This document shows positions 43,560-52,043 of a stretch of DNA of 64,000 nucleotides, piece after piece; positions within the stretch are counted from its first letter, which is position 1, and every line of letters starts with the position of its first letter. This DNA is from Nitrosomonas sp. (GTDB lineage Bacteria; Pseudomonadota; Gammaproteobacteria; Burkholderiales; Nitrosomonadaceae). A model generated the notes under the pieces. It saw only the letters and a list, made by a program, of their open reading frames with translations, did not search any database and was not told where the DNA came from. Both the position numbers and the translations under genes were made by a program. The stretch spans positions 124,001 to 188,000 of the forward strand of contig JAMXAG010000001.1 of assembly GCA_024281675.1 (NCBI GenBank). The letters run 5' to 3'.

Positions 43560-45290
43560 ATGCTTGAAAATTCTTTGCAATGGATTCGTTTGACTCATGT
43601 GTTAGTACTGGTATTTTTGGTGGGGCTATTTTTTCATTCAGATTTAGCGCCGCTAGAGGAGACGCACTGGGATTCCCCTATCTATCTGCAACTCTCTAAG
43701 CGAGCTGCGGAGACAAACACTTTAGCTGATTATCATCAATATGCTCAGGATATTCCTTTGGGTCCTGGCGATGGTGCGCATTGGTATTTTATGCGTATTG
43801 GCCATATTCTTTTGCTGAGTGAAGTTACGCGATTAGTGGGTGCTAATGAATCTGCGCTAGTAGCGATGCAGTGGTTATACCGAATTTTTATGGCATTAGG
43901 TCTTGCGCTGACAATTATGCTTTCTCATCAGCTTGTCAAGTTATTCAAGCGTAATGCACCCGATTCGAATTCCGCAAACTCATTTTGGTGGGCGGGTTAT
44001 TTTTTTGCAGCGATAACATATATCGCGTCGGATAGTTACCGTGGCCTTCAAGGGCATTTGGTCAGTGAGCCTCCTGCATTTCTGGTATTGGTTTTATTCG
44101 CCATTGCGCTATTAAAAGCGATTGAACGTCGTTCTTTATTCATCGCATCAAGTGCGGGTATTTTACTATTCTTGTTATTTTTTATTCGTGTTGATGCGGT
44201 ATTGCCTGGCGTTATTTTTTTGGTATTAATGGCCTGTACATTAATATTTATGAAAAGGCTAAATACTCTATCCGTTATTGCTGTTACAAGTTTGGTTTCA
44301 TTGTCTCTATATTTAGTTTATGCGTGGTGGTTTTATCCGTTAGTAAACCCACAGGTGTTATTGGAATTTTCATCCAATGCGAAAGAAGTGTTTTTTTCGG
44401 CACCTTTAAAAAGCATATTCTCTATCATAATTGCAGGTGGATTGCTTTGGGTTGGTGCGTGTGTGGGAGCATTGAGGTGGCGCGAGCCTATTATTCTTTT
44501 TGCAATGATTTGGCTGTTACTTTCACTATTACCCTTGTTGATAGATAGTTTGAATGGGCGTGCAGTTCAATCGCGTATGGCATTTTATATTGTATTGCCA
44601 TTATTGATTCTTGCTGGGGAAGGAGGGAGGTGGATCGCCCAAGCATTCGTTAAACAAAAGCGGATATTGCCAGTTGTTTTGGTACTGTCTGTGACGTTGA
44701 TGATAGCTCTCGTTCCTTATTCTATGATATTAAATGCGCGTAATTTTGCGGCTATATATCTTCCTCCGGAAATTCAACAATATTTGTTCACTTCATTAGC
44801 CAGAAAAGGCAGCATCCAGTCCAATCAACAATCTCACGACTCAAAACTAGGTTTGTTTGTGCGTCCTATGTATGAACGCTGGACGGTTGAATTTCTAAAA
44901 ATGAAGGAAATGGGAGATTACCTTTATGCATCTAATATCAAGGCCTATTTAACTTGGTCGGGGTATGATGCATCTATCGGGCAGCATTCCCTGCAAAGCT
45001 ATGTGGAATTGTTGCGGTATTTTGGTAAAAAGAATCCTAGTGATAAAAGTTTTGTGACAGAAAGAAGACCAAATGAAAATACGCCTTGTACAGAATATTT
45101 ATCGACGAACTTCGAGCCGATTGTTTTTTGTTCAACATTTACTGCTTCGGATATCCAAATTCTTAAAGAGAATAAGGGGGTCTTGTATGTACTTAGTGCA
45201 GAAGGATATGAAATTCCTAATTTAGCAGAGCTAAAATTAAAAAAAATGCTATCAATCCCGCCATTCGCTTTGTATGAAGCTATCGAGTAA
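43560..45290 (+). CDS. Polytopic membrane protein, GT-C glycosyltransferase-like
   Basis: 576 residues with about ten to twelve membrane spans followed by a soluble C-terminal domain of about 150 residues. Shortly after the first span the polar loop reads EETHWDSPIYLQL, where an Asp occupies the place of the catalytic acid of GT-C enzymes that use polyprenyl-linked sugars. The family cannot be assigned more closely. It lies about 470 bases before the acyl-ligase/SPT operon, so a role in glycosylating that product is conceivable but only an inference. Confidence 0.6.
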   Translation: MLENSLQWIRLTHVLVLVFLVGLFFHSDLAPLEETHWDSPIYLQLSKRAAETNTLADYHQYAQDIPLGPGDGAHWYFMRIGHILLLSEVTRLVGANESALVAMQWLYRIFMALGLALTIMLSHQLVKLFKRNAPDSNSANSFWWAGYFFAAITYIASDSYRGLQGHLVSEPPAFLVLVLFAIALLKAIERRSLFIASSAGILLFLLFFIRVDAVLPGVIFLVLMACTLIFMKRLNTLSVIAVTSLVSLSLYLVYAWWFYPLVNPQVLLEFSSNAKEVFFSAPLKSIFSIIIAGGLLWVGACVGALRWREPIILFAMIWLLLSLLPLLIDSLNGRAVQSRMAFYIVLPLLILAGEGGRWIAQAFVKQKRILPVVLVLSVTLMIALVPYSMILNARNFAAIYLPPEIQQYLFTSLARKGSIQSNQQSHDSKLGLFVRPMYERWTVEFLKMKEMGDYLYASNIKAYLTWSGYDASIGQHSLQSYVELLRYFGKKNPSDKSFVTERRPNENTPCTEYLSTNFEPIVFCSTFTASDIQILKENKGVLYVLSAEGYEIPNLAELKLKKMLSIPPFALYEAIE

Positions 45291-45760: not shown

Positions 45761-47581
45761 TTGAGTTCGACAATAACCAAGTTGAACGCTCCGCTAACGC
45801 AAGCGTTTGATTTTCAGCCTTCAAGCGAATTACAAATAACACCCACACTCAATACGCTGACTCAAAGATTGGCGGGTTTTGATACATTAACGAGTGCGTT
45901 GGAGTATGCGGCAAAAGGAATTACAGGCTATAATTTTTACGATGCTAAAGGGAGCTTGCGCTCAGTTCTACCTTACAGTGTATTAAGGGAAAACGCACGG
46001 GTTTTGGCAAAACGTCTATTTGGTTTGAATTTGCTCCGCGGCGAACGAGTGGCAATTATTGCCGATACTTCACCTGAGTTTATTGAGTTGTTTTTTGCAT
46101 GTCGCTATGCTGGTTTAATTCCATTTGCGATGCCTGTTCCAGTTAATCTTGGCAGTCACGCGATATATGTTCAACAACTTAGGGGTATGCTTGAAAGCGG
46201 CCAAGCCAGTATAGCTCTGGCGAATATCGATTATGTGGGTTTCTTGAAAGAAGCGGCCGAGCATGTCGAAAGCTTGCAGTGGGTGGGTACTCCAGCAGAA
46301 CTAGGTGAGTTCCCTATTAAAGATGTTGGTTTTCAAGATAACCATCCGAGTGAAACTGCATATTTGCAATTTACCTCTGGAAGCACGCGTGCATCACGTG
46401 GAGTGGTGATCACTGAGCGAGCTTTGATGTGTAATTTACAGGGGATTGTTCGAAATGGCTTGGAAATAAAACCAAATGATCGTTCTGCATCTTGGTTGCC
46501 GTTTTATCATGATATGGGGTTGGTTGGGTTGGTTCTGGCGCCGATGGTAACACAGATATCAGTGGATTATTTGGCTACTAGAGATTTTGCTATACGACCG
46601 CTGCAGTGGTTGAAGATTATCAGCCGTAATCGCTGTACGGTTGCATTCAGTCAGCCTTTTGGTCTTAAACTGTGTGCGATGCGGGTAAGAGATTCCGATT
46701 TGAAAGACCTAGATCTTAGTTGTTGGAGGGCGGCGGGAATTGGTGCGGAAATGATTAAGCCTGATATCCTTAGAAATTTTGCTGAAAGGTTCGCATCGGC
46801 TGGATTCAGTGAACGTGCATTTTTACCTTGCTATGGTTTGGCTGAATCTACACTCGCTGTGACTTTTTCGAAAATTAATGAGGGTTGTAAAAGCATACAA
46901 ATAGACAGTAAGGCTCTGATCGATAGAAAGATTGCTATTCGAATACAAGCAGAAGGGCGTAAGCAAAGTGAGTTTGTAAATTGTGGTCGCCCATTGCCAG
47001 GCCATATCGTACAAATAGTCAATGAAGCGGGTGAGCAAGTACCTGAAATGATGGTTGGTAGTGTTCTGGTATATGGTGATAGCGTAATGACGGGTTATTT
47101 CAATAACGCTGAAGAAACCAACAAAGCGTTGAAGCCTGGTAATTGGTTAGATACCGGCGATATAGGCTTTCTTTTTGAAGGCGATTTATATATCACTGGC
47201 CGACGTACAGACGTTATTATCGTTAATGGCCGCAATATACGTGCTCAAGATATTGAGGAGCTCGCGGAGCAGCAACCGGAAGTGAGATCTCGAGAGGCGT
47301 CAGCATTTGGTGTCAGTGATGAGGATGGAGCAACGACGATCGTATTGGTAATTGAATGTAGGCTTTCTGCAATTGCTGAACGTCAATCATTGACAACCCG
47401 TTTGCAGCAATTAGTTTACATGGCATTTGGGGTAAATTGCGTAGTAGAACTAGTGCCTCCTCATACTTTACCGAGAACATCATCAGGAAAACTATCTCGT
47501 TTCGCGGCGAGGCAAGGTTATATTCAAAGAACGAACTTGGATGGTCAACAGTTATCTGCTGTGGAATCTGGGGATAGATAA
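45761..47581 (+). CDS. Fatty acyl-AMP ligase / acyl-ACP synthetase
   Basis: 606 residues of the ANL adenylating superfamily. The phosphate-binding loop is LQFTSGSTRASRGVVITE (about 203-220); PCYGLAEST (about 360) and WLDTGDIGF (about 465) are the A5 and A7 motifs. The overall pattern (WLPFYHDMGLVG, TVAFSQPFGLKL) is that of fatty-acyl-AMP ligases, which pass acyl-adenylate to an acyl carrier protein rather than to CoA. The TTG start at 45761 has GAGGGGA upstream. It is the first gene of an operon with an SDR, an ACP and an SPT-like enzyme; the ACP at 48528 is its likely acceptor. Confidence 0.87.
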   Translation: MSSTITKLNAPLTQAFDFQPSSELQITPTLNTLTQRLAGFDTLTSALEYAAKGITGYNFYDAKGSLRSVLPYSVLRENARVLAKRLFGLNLLRGERVAIIADTSPEFIELFFACRYAGLIPFAMPVPVNLGSHAIYVQQLRGMLESGQASIALANIDYVGFLKEAAEHVESLQWVGTPAELGEFPIKDVGFQDNHPSETAYLQFTSGSTRASRGVVITERALMCNLQGIVRNGLEIKPNDRSASWLPFYHDMGLVGLVLAPMVTQISVDYLATRDFAIRPLQWLKIISRNRCTVAFSQPFGLKLCAMRVRDSDLKDLDLSCWRAAGIGAEMIKPDILRNFAERFASAGFSERAFLPCYGLAESTLAVTFSKINEGCKSIQIDSKALIDRKIAIRIQAEGRKQSEFVNCGRPLPGHIVQIVNEAGEQVPEMMVGSVLVYGDSVMTGYFNNAEETNKALKPGNWLDTGDIGFLFEGDLYITGRRTDVIIVNGRNIRAQDIEELAEQQPEVRSREASAFGVSDEDGATTIVLVIECRLSAIAERQSLTTRLQQLVYMAFGVNCVVELVPPHTLPRTSSGKLSRFAARQGYIQRTNLDGQQLSAVESGDR

Positions 47582-47587
47582 GGAAAA

Positions 47588-48499
47588 ATGTTGAAACTTG
47601 TAGCTGTAACGGGAGCTACAGGTTTCATCGGCAAGAACCTAACAGAAAGACTCATTGAGAATGGTTATAAAGTTCGTGCGCTTGGACGAAAATATCAACC
47701 TAGTAATGAGTTAATCCAATGGATTCAGGGTGATTTAGGTAATTCTACAGCGCTAAATTACTTGGTTCGTGATGTATCAGCTGTTATTCATTGTGCTGCA
47801 ACTGTTAGAGGCGGTTCATTCAAGCAGTTTGCGGATGTCAATATTCAGGGTACGCAAAATCTTCTGGAAGCAATCGTTCAACAATCTCAATCTCCACGTT
47901 TTTTGCATATCTCATCTTTAGCTGCGAGACAACCGGAGCTATCCTGGTATGCGCAGAGTAAATATTTGTCAGAACAGGTTTTGTATCAATATTCTGATCG
48001 ACTGAATTGGGCAGTATTTCGTCCTACCGCTGTATATGGTCCCGGTGATAAAGAATTAAAACCACTATTTAAATCAATGCGGCGCGGTCTGCTTCCCGTA
48101 GTGGGGAGAATACATAATCGATTCGGGTTGCTGCATGTGAAAGATTTAATAGCGGCTATACTATGCTGGCTATCTTCAGAGAAACCCATAGGCGGGATAT
48201 TTGAACTCGATGATGGTACTCCTGGTGGGTATAATTACCAAAGCTTATCGGATTTAGTGCAGCATGAATGGAAGCGACCCATTCGATGTGTTTTGATACC
48301 TAACTCATTGATTCGTGGTGTATCTTTTTTAAATCTGGCCTTATCCAAGCTGTTGCAGTATTCTCCTATGCTGACGCCGGGTAAGGTGAATGAATTGCAG
48401 CATACTGATTGGGTGTGTGATAACGCACCCATACAACATGTTCTTCCAGAATGGAAACCTCGTATTCGTTTACAAGATTCATTATCTGAAGTAATCTAA
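47588..48499 (+). CDS. NAD-dependent epimerase/dehydratase-family reductase (possible ceramide reductase type)
   Basis: 303 residues, extended SDR family. The Rossmann loop is TGATGFIGKN (about 8-17); the active-site set is Ser in HISSLAAR and YAQSK (about 122-126). RPTAVYGPGD follows as in epimerases. It starts six bases after the acyl-ligase stop. Beside an SPT-like gene the likely job is reduction of a 3-keto long-chain base or ceramide, as proposed for CerR in Caulobacter. The assignment rests on context. Confidence 0.82.
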   Translation: MLKLVAVTGATGFIGKNLTERLIENGYKVRALGRKYQPSNELIQWIQGDLGNSTALNYLVRDVSAVIHCAATVRGGSFKQFADVNIQGTQNLLEAIVQQSQSPRFLHISSLAARQPELSWYAQSKYLSEQVLYQYSDRLNWAVFRPTAVYGPGDKELKPLFKSMRRGLLPVVGRIHNRFGLLHVKDLIAAILCWLSSEKPIGGIFELDDGTPGGYNYQSLSDLVQHEWKRPIRCVLIPNSLIRGVSFLNLALSKLLQYSPMLTPGKVNELQHTDWVCDNAPIQHVLPEWKPRIRLQDSLSEVI

Positions 48500-48527
48500 A
48501 TAAAATCCAAAATTCTAGAAATAATGT

Positions 48528-48785
48528 ATGAGTCAAACAGATTACGACCAGATCGTTCAATTACTTTGTGATCGCTTAGCCGATTTGTCTAAAACACCAG
48601 AAGAGAGTATTTCGCCTGAAACAAATCTCATCACGCAATTATCCATTGATTCTATTAAGTTACTGGGTTTGATTATGGAAATTGAGGATGCCTTTGATAT
48701 TTCAATTCCTATTAATGCGCTTACGGATATACAAACAGTCCATGAATTGGCCGAATTGGTTCATAAAATTAAATCCGCATCATAA
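48528..48785 (+). CDS. Acyl carrier protein
   Basis: 85 residues, acidic and helical, with the phosphopantetheine attachment Ser42 in LSIDSIKLLGLIMEIED. It is not the housekeeping AcpP (no fab genes near). Its stop overlaps the ATG of the SPT-like gene (TAATG at 48783-48787), so the two are translationally coupled. Probable acyl donor for SPT, loaded by the acyl-AMP ligase at 45761. Confidence 0.9.
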   Translation: MSQTDYDQIVQLLCDRLADLSKTPEESISPETNLITQLSIDSIKLLGLIMEIEDAFDISIPINALTDIQTVHELAELVHKIKSAS

Positions 48786-49972
48786 TGAATTTACTTGAAA
48801 AATTAGACGCTGCGGCTGCGGCACGAAAATCTTTATTGCCTGATGGTATAGGTGCCTTTGGTATACCAATTGAGGAAGTGTACTCTGCTACTGAGGCTCG
48901 TATTGGTGATCGGCGAGTATTATTGTTAGGTACCAATAATTATCTTGGACTCACGTTTGCACCGGAATGTATTCAAGCAGCGCATGAAGCCCTTGATAAA
49001 GAGGGTACTGGGACAACGGGCTCCCGGATGGCGAATGGAAGCTATTTTGGTCATCGAGCCTTGGAAAGGGAATTTGCTGATTTTTATCAATGCAGCGGAG
49101 GAATCGTATTTACTACCGGCTACCAAGCTAACCTAGGTACAATTTCGGGTTTGGTTGGACCGGGTGATACAGTACTAATTGATGGCGATTCTCATGCGAG
49201 TATTTACGATGGGTGCATACTCAGTGGCGCGGACATTGTCCGCTTTCGACACAATGACGTTGCCGATATGGAAAAGCGACTACGTAGATTAGGAGAACGT
49301 GTAGAGACAACATTGATTATTGCCGAAGGCATTTATAGCATGCTGGGTGATCAGGCGCCTCTGGCTGAGATTATTGAATTGAAAAACAAATACCGTTGTA
49401 TTTTACTCCTTGATGAAGCCCATTCGCTGGGTGTGCTCGGAGAAACAGGCCAAGGTTTGGTAGAGAAAACGGGATTACTTAAAGCAGTGGATTTTATTAC
49501 GGGTACTTTTAGTAAAAGCCTATGCAGCATCGGTGGTTTTTGTGTCAGTAATCATCCCCAACTTGAACAATTACGGTACGTGAGTCATCCTTATATTTTT
49601 ACCGCATCACCCTCACCAGCAACCATTGCTTCAACGCGAGCAGCTTTGGAATTGTTACGTAAAGGTAGTCATTTGCGTACGCAGTTATGGAAAAATTGCA
49701 CGCAGCTTTATACGCAGCTCAAAGAGACGGGTTATCAATTAGGGCCAGATCCTGGACCAGTGATTGCTGCTATCTTGGATACGCCGCAACAAGCTTTACT
49801 CATGTGGAGAAGCTTGTTGGAACATAACATTTATGTGAATCTCATCTTGCCTCCGGCAGCTCCTGAAGGGAAATCGCTGGTACGCTGCAGTGTTAATGCT
49901 GCACATACTTCGGAGCAAATAAAGTATGTAGGTGATACGTTTGCAAAACTATACAATTTGGTGAAGTCGTAA
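48785..49972 (+). CDS. spt: Serine palmitoyltransferase-like alpha-oxoamine synthase
   Basis: 395 residues, fold type I PLP enzyme. PLP-binding residues are in place: His137 (DGDSHASIYDGC), Asp210 and His213 (LLDEAHS), Lys244 (GTFSKSL). Many stretches resemble Sphingomonas SPT as I recall it: GTNGSRM-like GTTGSRMANG, IVRFRHN, YSMLGD, GGFCVSNHP, PYIFTAS and a C-terminal VNLILPPAAPEGKSLVRCS. It is thus closer to SPT than to BioF or Kbl. SPT joins serine with an acyl thioester to form 3-ketosphinganine. The adjacent ACP suggests an acyl-ACP donor. Confidence 0.86.
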   Translation: MNLLEKLDAAAAARKSLLPDGIGAFGIPIEEVYSATEARIGDRRVLLLGTNNYLGLTFAPECIQAAHEALDKEGTGTTGSRMANGSYFGHRALEREFADFYQCSGGIVFTTGYQANLGTISGLVGPGDTVLIDGDSHASIYDGCILSGADIVRFRHNDVADMEKRLRRLGERVETTLIIAEGIYSMLGDQAPLAEIIELKNKYRCILLLDEAHSLGVLGETGQGLVEKTGLLKAVDFITGTFSKSLCSIGGFCVSNHPQLEQLRYVSHPYIFTASPSPATIASTRAALELLRKGSHLRTQLWKNCTQLYTQLKETGYQLGPDPGPVIAAILDTPQQALLMWRSLLEHNIYVNLILPPAAPEGKSLVRCSVNAAHTSEQIKYVGDTFAKLYNLVKS

Positions 49973-50057: not shown

Positions 50058-50711
50058 ATGAAGATAATCCGAATGTTGATTTGTATAGCAGTTTTTCATG
50101 GTCTTTGTAATAATGCTTTTGCCACGGCAATAGTTTTTGACGGGTTGGATTGTTTTAACACTACTAACGATAGTGATTTAACAACGACAGGGCTACTCAT
50201 CCAGAGTAAATTTGAAGTAACAGAGGATCTCGGCCAAGGGATGTATCGCTTGAGCTTAACGGGCGGTATCCCAAGATTTGTCAATACGAGCGGGAGTGTT
50301 TGTATTGATCACGTGACTGCTTTAGGATATTTCGCTTCGGGAAGTTTGGATTTTACTATTCCGCCGCAACCACTCGAATCGCTGGATGCCACCGGTTACT
50401 TTAATGGACATGAGTTGATCATCTTGGTTAATTCGATTGTGACGGATTTTAGTGCAGGTAGAGATGCGTTTACTTCATTTCATACCAGCAGAATACAGAC
50501 GATCTCCAATATGCTGATTTTTGACTACAATCCTCAACAATCTTTTTTTTCCCTGAAAAGGCTTATTCGTAACAAAAGTCAGACACAAACCAGTGGTTTT
50601 GCAAATACACTGCCATTTCACGAAACACTATTCCCCTCTACCAACGGTATTGGGCCAGACAGGCCGCAGGTATTGATTCCCTTATCTCCCATTAATTATC
50701 TATTAAGGTGA
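50058..50711 (+). CDS. Exported protein of unknown function
   Basis: 217 residues. The signal peptide (MKIIRMLICIAVFHGLCNNAFA) is followed by a beta-rich domain with two cysteines (about residues 32 and 82). The end lacks a PEP-CTERM, LPXTG or membrane anchor. It follows the SPT-like gene by 85 bases on the same strand with no terminator between, so co-transcription is possible. I do not recognise the family. Confidence 0.6.
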   Translation: MKIIRMLICIAVFHGLCNNAFATAIVFDGLDCFNTTNDSDLTTTGLLIQSKFEVTEDLGQGMYRLSLTGGIPRFVNTSGSVCIDHVTALGYFASGSLDFTIPPQPLESLDATGYFNGHELIILVNSIVTDFSAGRDAFTSFHTSRIQTISNMLIFDYNPQQSFFSLKRLIRNKSQTQTSGFANTLPFHETLFPSTNGIGPDRPQVLIPLSPINYLLR

Positions 50712-50767: not shown

Positions 50768-52043
50768 AAGACCTCTGCACAACCGCGAGAATTTAGCTGT
50801 AGTGACAGAGAAAAATATCCAACTGACAGTTATTGCACGTCATTTTGGTAGAAAGTGAAGTTTTTTTCCTTTTTTAGGGGAATTTTCCCCCTTATGCAAC
50901 ATTTGGACGGATTGCTCTCCTTAATGGTTGGTCTACGAAGATTTTGTTGGCTGCTTTTTTCAGGTTCATGCAGATACTTTTCAGTATGACTTGGGCGTTG
51001 ACTTTTACCGTACCGAAGTAGCTGGCGCGCCCCATTCTGAATAAGCGTTTGATTGTGCCAAAACACTGTTCGACAATATAACGTTTTTTGCTGATCAATT
51101 GATTCGCCAGCTTCTGGCGTGCCGAGAGTGGTTTGTTCTTGTACGCACGATGCATGATTGCGCTCTTGATCTTTTGCTTTCTTAGAAACTGCCGATTGGC
51201 ATTGCTGGCAGATCCCTTGTCAGCATATACCCGATTCGCCTCGATATGCGCACCATCGATAGCTGCTTCGAAATGCATCATTTCACTCTGGTTGGCAGGA
51301 GTAGTGTGAACCCCGCGCACATAGCCGTCTTGTGCGTCCACCACCAGGTAACTGCGGTAGCCAAACTGCGACTTCTTGCCTTTCTTTAGCCAAGTCGCAT
51401 CCGGATCCGCACTTTGTTCTTCGGTACAGCTGATTCCAGGCTGACTGCCATCTTCAAACTGAACAGCCTTACCTTCGGTATCTACCTCAAGTAGGATGGT
51501 CTTTCTAGGGCGTGCCGCTGACTCAATCAGCGTGGCATCAATGACCGCTCCTGTCGCACCCTTGATCATCAATCCGTGTGATTGAAGCTGCTCATTAATA
51601 GAACCTAGCAAACCATCTAGTCGGTCGTTGATTACCAGACGGTTACGGAACCGGCACAAAGTGGTTTCGTCCGGTATCGCATCCGACAAGGACAGCCCGC
51701 AAAATTGTAGAAAATCAATCCGTACACACAGCGCTTGCTCCAACGCAGCATCCGATAAACTATGCCACTGACCCAGCAGGATCGCTTTGAACATCAACAA
51801 CACATCAAACGGTTCCTGTCCTCCACCATGCGATAACTCGCGCTTGTATAAAACCGTAAGCTTCGGACGTAACTCCTCCCACTCAATCAGCGCATCAATC
51901 TTCATCAGAACATTATCTCGCTTCAATCGCTCTGCCAATTCCAGTGCTCCAAAACTCATCTGCATCTTTTGCTCCAATTCTCTTTTAACTACCTCTATTT
52001 TAGTTGGTTATTGCAATAGCAGGCGAGGTTGTGCAGGAGTCTT
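50768..52043 (-). mobile_element. IS5-family insertion sequence, intact copy
   Basis: 1276 bp with ends AAGACCTCTGCACAACCGCG and, inward from the other side, AAGACTCCTGCACAACCTCG. It is flanked by exact 5-bp direct repeats TTCTC (50763-50767 and 52044-52048). It contains one transposase gene on the minus strand. The decayed relative is at 11889-13154, and a lone end at 32479-32496. Confidence 0.95.
50892..51965 (-). CDS. IS5-family transposase
   Basis: About 357 residues, complete. Start ATG 51965 (MQMSFGALELAERLKRDNVL) has GGAG six bases upstream. An N-terminal DUF772-type helical domain (LLMFKAILLGQWHSLSD) precedes the DDE core: Asp in GAVIDATLIE, Asp in VYADKGSAS, Glu in YIVEQCFGTIKR. The frame is uninterrupted, so the element may still be mobile. 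Confidence 0.95.
   Translation of the reverse strand: MQMSFGALELAERLKRDNVLMKIDALIEWEELRPKLTVLYKRELSHGGGQEPFDVLLMFKAILLGQWHSLSDAALEQALCVRIDFLQFCGLSLSDAIPDETTLCRFRNRLVINDRLDGLLGSINEQLQSHGLMIKGATGAVIDATLIESAARPRKTILLEVDTEGKAVQFEDGSQPGISCTEEQSADPDATWLKKGKKSQFGYRSYLVVDAQDGYVRGVHTTPANQSEMMHFEAAIDGAHIEANRVYADKGSASNANRQFLRKQKIKSAIMHRAYKNKPLSARQKLANQLISKKRYIVEQCFGTIKRLFRMGRASYFGTVKVNAQVILKSICMNLKKAANKIFVDQPLRRAIRPNVA

Follow-up and report, generated by a model that had tools for sequence, protein, structure and literature searches.

What does a set of genes for ceramide synthesis do in an ammonia-oxidising bacterium, and which lipid faces the outside in a family that retains these genes and is missing key genes for lipopolysaccharide (LPS)? 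The question is raised by an operon of Nitrosomonas sp. (contig JAMXAG010000001.1) within a stretch of 64,000 nucleotides, here called the window, in whose coordinates positions are given unless another contig is named. Families of the open reading frames (ORFs) were assigned by profile scans with Pfam and NCBIfam. Judged from its sequence, the operon is the proteobacterial ceramide gene set aasR, cerR, acpR and spt; taken alone, it is not new and is ordinary within its kind. What seems to be new is a whole family, the Nitrosomonadaceae, in which the ceramide genes are nearly fixed but key LPS genes are missing. It is likely that in this family an anionic ceramide lipid has taken the place of LPS; this lipid would probably be the main charged one of the outer leaflet and would be delivered by the Lpt bridge. 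A sphingolipid in place of LPS is proposed because the family retains LptD without lpxC, lpxB or waaA and because LptF and LptG are usually encoded in the ceramide cluster. The four genes of the operon are as follows:

aasR, 45761-47581, plus strand: 606 residues, with a TTG start after GAGGGG; a fatty acyl-AMP ligase by family, with acyl-AcpR synthetase as its predicted role.
cerR, 47588-48499, plus strand: 303 residues; extended short-chain dehydrogenase/reductase (SDR), predicted oxo-ceramide or oxo-sphinganine reductase.
acpR, 48528-48785, plus strand: 85 residues; specialised acyl carrier protein (ACP), with the phosphopantetheine serine (Ser42) in a DSI motif.
spt, 48785-49972, plus strand: 395 residues; serine palmitoyltransferase, its start overlapping the acpR stop (TAATG).

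The family-wide pattern was obtained from 120 genomes of the Nitrosomonadaceae, belonging to four genera, and from 300 genomes of the order. Within the family the ceramide genes are co-inherited: spt is present over the profile cut-off in 116 of the 120 genomes, cerS (the candidate N-acyltransferase gene) is also found in 116, and both are retained even in genomes of 1.3 Mb such as G004 and G016. The lipid A search was confined to lpxC, lpxB and waaA (Kdo transferase) and detected each of the three genes in E. coli and Caulobacter vibrioides controls. None of the 120 family genomes yielded lpxC or waaA, and none yielded lpxB over the cut-off (four weak matches reach at most 21 bits). Across the order, lpxC is present in 287/300 genomes (286 over the cut-off). 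The 13 genomes without it are all nine of the sampled Nitrosomonadaceae, two from elsewhere in the order (G158 and G202) and two that are fragmented (G309 and G326). Spt of the type recognized by the NCBIfam model NF047599 occurs over the cut-off in 11 of the 300, namely the same nine Nitrosomonadaceae together with G217 and G256.

The location of cerS links the operon to the export genes. The earlier note, made from the window sequence, had called the N-acyltransferase absent there. For the genome as a whole its absence is rejected: E. coli YghO, which is listed as the product of an N-acyltransferase gene (PMC9386255), finds a single orthologue in the genome that the window comes from (C27:13073-14167, 50% identity, 1.4e-128). 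Of the two outcomes that the note had allowed, a product that stops at sphinganine is contradicted and one completed elsewhere holds, as cerS lies on contig C27 beside head-group and LptF/LptG genes. Neither this protein nor YghO matches a Pfam or NCBIfam family at E 0.001 (a GNAT match at 0.0031 is sub-threshold), and consequently the cerS assignment rests on similarity to YghO. The genes of the cluster are:

cerS, C27:13067-14218, same strand as the cluster: YghO orthologue.
NTP transferase, C27:12264-13070, same strand: NTP_transf_3.
LptF, C27:11145-12218, same strand: over the NCBIfam cut-off.
LptG, C27:10081 to about 11130, same strand: over the NCBIfam cut-off.
CDP-alcohol transferase, C27:8737-10014, same strand: CDP-OH_P_transf.
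Lipid kinase of the DAGK type, ceramide-kinase-like, C27:7700-8707, same strand: DAGK_cat, 33% identical to a Pseudomonas plasmid gene.
Tam41-like protein of 326 residues, C27:6714-7694, same strand: Pfam Tam41 sub-threshold, E 0.016.

A protein encoded in a Pseudomonas plasmid ceramide cluster shares 42% identity with the Tam41-like protein. By domain and gene order, rather than by direct protein comparison, the seven genes from cerS to the Tam41-like one would be CC_1154, CC_1153, LptF2, LptG2, CC_1159, CC_1160 and CC_1161 of Caulobacter, whose functions are as proposed in PMC11324152.

The Lpt searches covered LptD in the 120 family genomes and LptF/LptG in 61 of them. LptD is retained in 120/120, some matches being partial. 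LptF/LptG matches are present in 59 of the 61, with exactly two matches in 57. In 56 of these 59 genomes, the only two matches are situated less than 4 kb from cerS and in its orientation. The exceptions are G034, with an extra copy, G057, with an extra match under the cut-off, and G038, where one of the pair is on a different contig; G021 and G028, which have no LptF/LptG match, are also without cerS. The identity of the window genome's LptF is 48% with the spt/cerS-linked LptF of two relatives' loci (L070 and L077), but drops to 34% with that of the E. coli ceramide cluster and to 22% with the canonical E. coli protein. Its LptG shares 36-39% identity with ceramide-cluster LptG of E. coli and of a Pseudomonas plasmid, compared with 30% for canonical LptG. 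In tree analysis, LptF of the window genome groups with L070 and L077 (100/99; long-branch warnings apply elsewhere in the tree), and its LptG groups with ceramide-cluster LptG at weaker support (86/76). By these sequence comparisons, LptF of the window genome is of the ceramide-cluster type.

The strongest competing explanation is that the operon makes a minor sphingolipid, that lipid A was lost through unrelated genome reduction and that the outer leaflet consists of phospholipid, hopanoid or something else. We regard this as improbable. PMC3087551 ascribes the missing lipid A genes to reductive evolution of the genome, and that paper never uses the word sphingolipid. In addition, G158 and G202, the two sampled members of one other family, are without lpxC and without such Spt, so that LPS loss need not accompany Spt; this also counts against the proposed replacement of LPS. 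Genome reduction, however, sits poorly with the retention of spt and cerS in all but a few family genomes, down to the 1.3-Mb ones, and the universal LptD and the LptF/LptG pair beside cerS are hard to explain without export to the outer leaflet. Separately, the family of G158 and G202 may perhaps also be free of LPS, having solved the problem in some other way.

Several further points weigh against replacement of LPS by a ceramide lipid. G217 and G256, from the same order, carry both Spt and lpxC, so that having Spt is not by itself a sign of LPS loss. A full spt match is missing in G100, G116 (where a partial match lies at a contig edge), G021 and G024, and cerS was not found in G100, G116, G021 and G028; G100, which is without both genes, is listed as 91% complete, and the other genomes with a missing gene are listed at 72-89%. 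The canonical LptF/LptG used for contrast came from E. coli K-12 and from no betaproteobacterium, and the similarities were computed for the window genome only. Residue 355 of the window Spt is a leucine (Leu355); the aligned solved chains carry an arginine there, which we take to be Arg378 of the Sphingomonas enzyme. Leucine is also present at this position in the Spt of E. coli 95-3322. The Spt of another strain, E. coli BL21, is reported to be active (PMC9386255). Finally, in PMC3087551 lpxK is the sole lipid A gene found in N. europaea, and lpxA is the sole one cited for Nitrosospira multiformis.

Gaps of 6 bases (aasR/cerR) and 28 bases (cerR/acpR) separate the first three genes of the operon. 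AasR scores 841.7 bits on NF006624 (fatty acyl-AMP ligase), against a cut-off of 600. CerR matches PF01370 (epimerase-type SDR) at 2.9e-29 and carries GATGFIG (Rossmann motif, residues 9-15) and YAQSK; AcpR matches PF00550 at 2.9e-13. Both of the latter exceed the Pfam cut-offs, just as AasR and Spt exceed those of NCBIfam. The four identities that the earlier note had read from the window, its likening of them to the Caulobacter-type ceramide set and the residues it had listed (Ser42 of AcpR; His137, Asp210, His213 and Lys244 of Spt) all held up, as did its placing of the organism among ammonia-oxidising betaproteobacteria.

A much weaker alternative treats the pyridoxal phosphate (PLP) enzyme as an alpha-oxoamine synthase of a different kind (BioF, Kbl or CqsA-like) with a non-sphingolipid product, for example a signal molecule; we consider this very improbable. 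These enzymes belong to a common fold family, and a fatty acyl-AMP ligase together with an ACP is also known from polyketide and lipopeptide pathways, which speaks for such a product. However, Spt of the window scores 572.5 bits on NF047599 (serine palmitoyltransferase; cut-off 500) and 322.7 bits on the bioF model, under its cut-off of 426.45. Controls on NF047599 give 600.1 bits for E. coli Spt, 251.5 for E. coli BioF and 314.6 for E. coli Kbl. Spt carries H137, D210, H213, K244 and R367, presumably the catalytic residues, and the same letters are aligned in solved Spt chains; the ten best distinct solved sequences are all named serine palmitoyltransferase, the best at 1.3e-118. In the Spt tree, whose 49 rows comprise 42 from the best 80 of 565 relatives' loci and 7 others, a branch of 4.58 (support 100/99) parts 46 Spt rows from BioF, from Kbl and from a BioF-like protein encoded in the same genome as the window, a separate member of the alpha-oxoamine synthase family that groups with BioF. 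The genome also carries cerS. The NF047599 score, the BioF/Kbl controls and the tree rule out BioF/Kbl membership, and a CqsA-like enzyme is rejected by 224.1 bits on NF005526, under the cut-off of 428. As to family membership, this alternative is, on sequence grounds, already refuted. The scores and the tree both place 48785-49972 with Spt, as the earlier note had claimed and had proposed to check by phylogeny. Least probable of all is the note's variant in which the pathway ends at sphinganine for want of an N-acyltransferase: no cerS is found in the available stretches around spt at 23 family loci, but the orthologue is present on C27 and in nearly all family genomes.

If LPS has been replaced by a ceramide lipid, the pathway would run as follows. 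AasR would load a fatty acid onto AcpR, and Spt would condense acyl-AcpR with serine to give 3-oxo-sphinganine; such feeding of Spt by acyl-AcpR was demonstrated with enzymes from Caulobacter, from E. coli and from Sphingomonas (PMC9386255). CerS, encoded on the other contig, would then N-acylate the product and CerR would reduce it, the order of these steps being disputed for Caulobacter. Products of the genes adjoining cerS would add a phosphate and then a head group to the ceramide, the most likely product being ceramide phosphoglycerate (CPG), and the Lpt bridge would carry the anionic lipid to the outer leaflet, where it may serve a structural role. There is a precedent in Caulobacter, where CPG2 is part of what allows cells to survive when LPS is missing (PMC12275187, PMC10331486). 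CerR has been placed in the periplasm for Caulobacter (PMC11087976). By eye, no leader is seen in the CerR of the window, which fits a cytoplasmic enzyme, and at 21 of the 23 family loci no more than 17 in-frame codons precede the aligned CerR start (L059 has 49 and L068 has 44, again with no clear leader by eye). A leaderless CerR across the family would sit badly with a periplasmic enzyme, yet it does not disprove the Caulobacter site.

The trees also bear on how this state arose. Spt of the window pairs with that of Nitrosomonas sp. GW-Mt58, the nearest named relative (95% identical), in a clade of 15 rows (100/99), 13 of which are labelled Nitrosomonadaceae or window and two of which (L062 and L065) have broader labels. 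The sisters of this clade are two gammaproteobacterial assemblies, not the other betaproteobacterial rows. Since Spt and LptF share these sisters (L070 and L077), the sequences suggest that spt and LptF arrived together. Somewhat more likely than not, though less assured than the replacement itself, is a history in which the common ancestor of the Nitrosomonadaceae gained the ceramide cluster, along with the LptF/LptG genes belonging to it, from a donor resembling a gammaproteobacterium, and then lost lipid A synthesis and canonical LptF/LptG. Its descendants would be LPS-free, with an outer membrane of anionic ceramide phosphoglycerates and an Lpt bridge that now carries only sphingolipid. 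L070 is a contig (metagenome-assembled genome) labelled Klebsiella pneumoniae whose Spt and LptF are nearest to those of the Nitrosomonadaceae; its species label is probably wrong.

The closest known systems each match part of this picture. The Caulobacter crescentus cluster CC_1168-CC_1152 contains aasR, cerR, acpR, spt, cerS, a ceramide kinase, a CDP-alcohol transferase, a nucleotidyltransferase and LptF2/G2, to which the genes predicted here would correspond. However, the control genome of C. vibrioides has lpxC, lpxB and waaA, and the Lpt genes of the Caulobacter cluster are called second versions (PMC11324152), whereas the pair adjoining cerS is the sole one in 56/59 family genomes. Sphingomonas makes sphingolipids and is naturally without lipid A (PMC10964400), which resembles the state proposed here; its reported lipids are glycosphingolipids, in contrast to the ceramide phosphoglycerate predicted for the betaproteobacterial Nitrosomonadaceae. 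Locus L034 of E. coli 95-3322 (yghO, aasR, cerR, acpR, spt, lptG, lptF) has the same four-gene order, with cerS (yghO) upstream on the opposite strand, and the same LptF/G type; it differs in that lpxC is present in the E. coli control and canonical LptF/G are encoded elsewhere in K-12. As a separate observation, 1458 of 5426 complete E. coli genomes match the window spt DNA at 60-80% identity; the ten matches listed each cover 91 bases at 75.8% identity and carry the annotation spt. Spt clusters with LptF/LptG and possible head-group genes also occur on plasmids, namely pPNP1 of Pseudomonas sp. JS425 (L035) and pDCB2 of Diaphorobacter sp. JS3051 (L036), the latter an IncP plasmid typed conjugative.

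The earlier note had thought such a pathway undescribed for ammonia-oxidising betaproteobacteria, and here the literature had anticipated it. Neut_0458-0461 and Neut_1100 (cerS) of N. eutropha C91 were named in 2022 (PMC9386255), and in 2024 at least 13 of 17 cluster orthologues were placed in three regions of the N. eutropha genome, with CPG and CPG2 predicted (PMC11324152). N. eutropha C91 has the same four genes with cerS elsewhere, but in the available text it is described as one example, unconnected to the missing lipid A genes or to fixation across the family. In the open-access literature, the missing lipid A genes and the presence of spt are each in print; no paper joining the two was found among the titles and abstract openings of the papers listed, which is no proof of novelty.

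Conservation of the operon was surveyed at the best 80 of 565 relatives' loci. The 23 family loci among these (L048-L069 and L073) comprise 21 labelled Nitrosomonadaceae, to which L062 and L065 are added because of where they fall in the Spt tree. The order aasR-cerR-acpR-spt is kept in 23/23 of them, which puts it far beyond chance, and AasR is 69-91% identical across them. At the other 57 loci the order is kept in 40 and broken in 2, and in 15 one gene was not found within the available stretch. cerS lies within the same stretch as spt in 38 of these 57 and in none of the 23. The scans for promoters (8 sites, 13.2 expected) and for terminators (6, 4.0 expected) were both uninformative.

An ORF of 217 residues (50058-50711, plus strand), with an apparent signal peptide by eye, begins 85 bases downstream of spt. 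It has no Pfam match at E 0.001 and recurs just downstream of spt at 9 of the 23 family loci (46-72% identical). Upstream of the operon are a 576-residue protein (43560-45290), multi-span membrane by eye and with no Pfam or NCBIfam match at E 0.001, and a 758-residue protein that by eye resembles a CHASE2 cyclase; a transposase-like ORF, also judged by eye, lies close behind the operon (50892-51977, minus strand). None of these three was found in the available stretches of the 23 family loci.

Taken together, near-fixed ceramide genes, absent lipid A genes and a sole LptF/LptG pair located within the ceramide cluster offer a new reading of the nitrifier envelope that is specific and can be tested. 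The route by which sphingolipids reach the outer membrane was stated to be unknown in 2024 (PMC11324152), and why some diderms tolerate the loss of lipid A has been called an open question (PMC10964400). If the reading is true, both questions could be tested directly in a family that has a single Lpt pair and lacks LPS that might interfere with the assays. The reading would then also bear on the use of nitrifier fatty acids as biomarkers and on drugs directed against the envelope, and Nitrosomonas eutropha, which is reported to have been tried on human skin, would carry no endotoxin.

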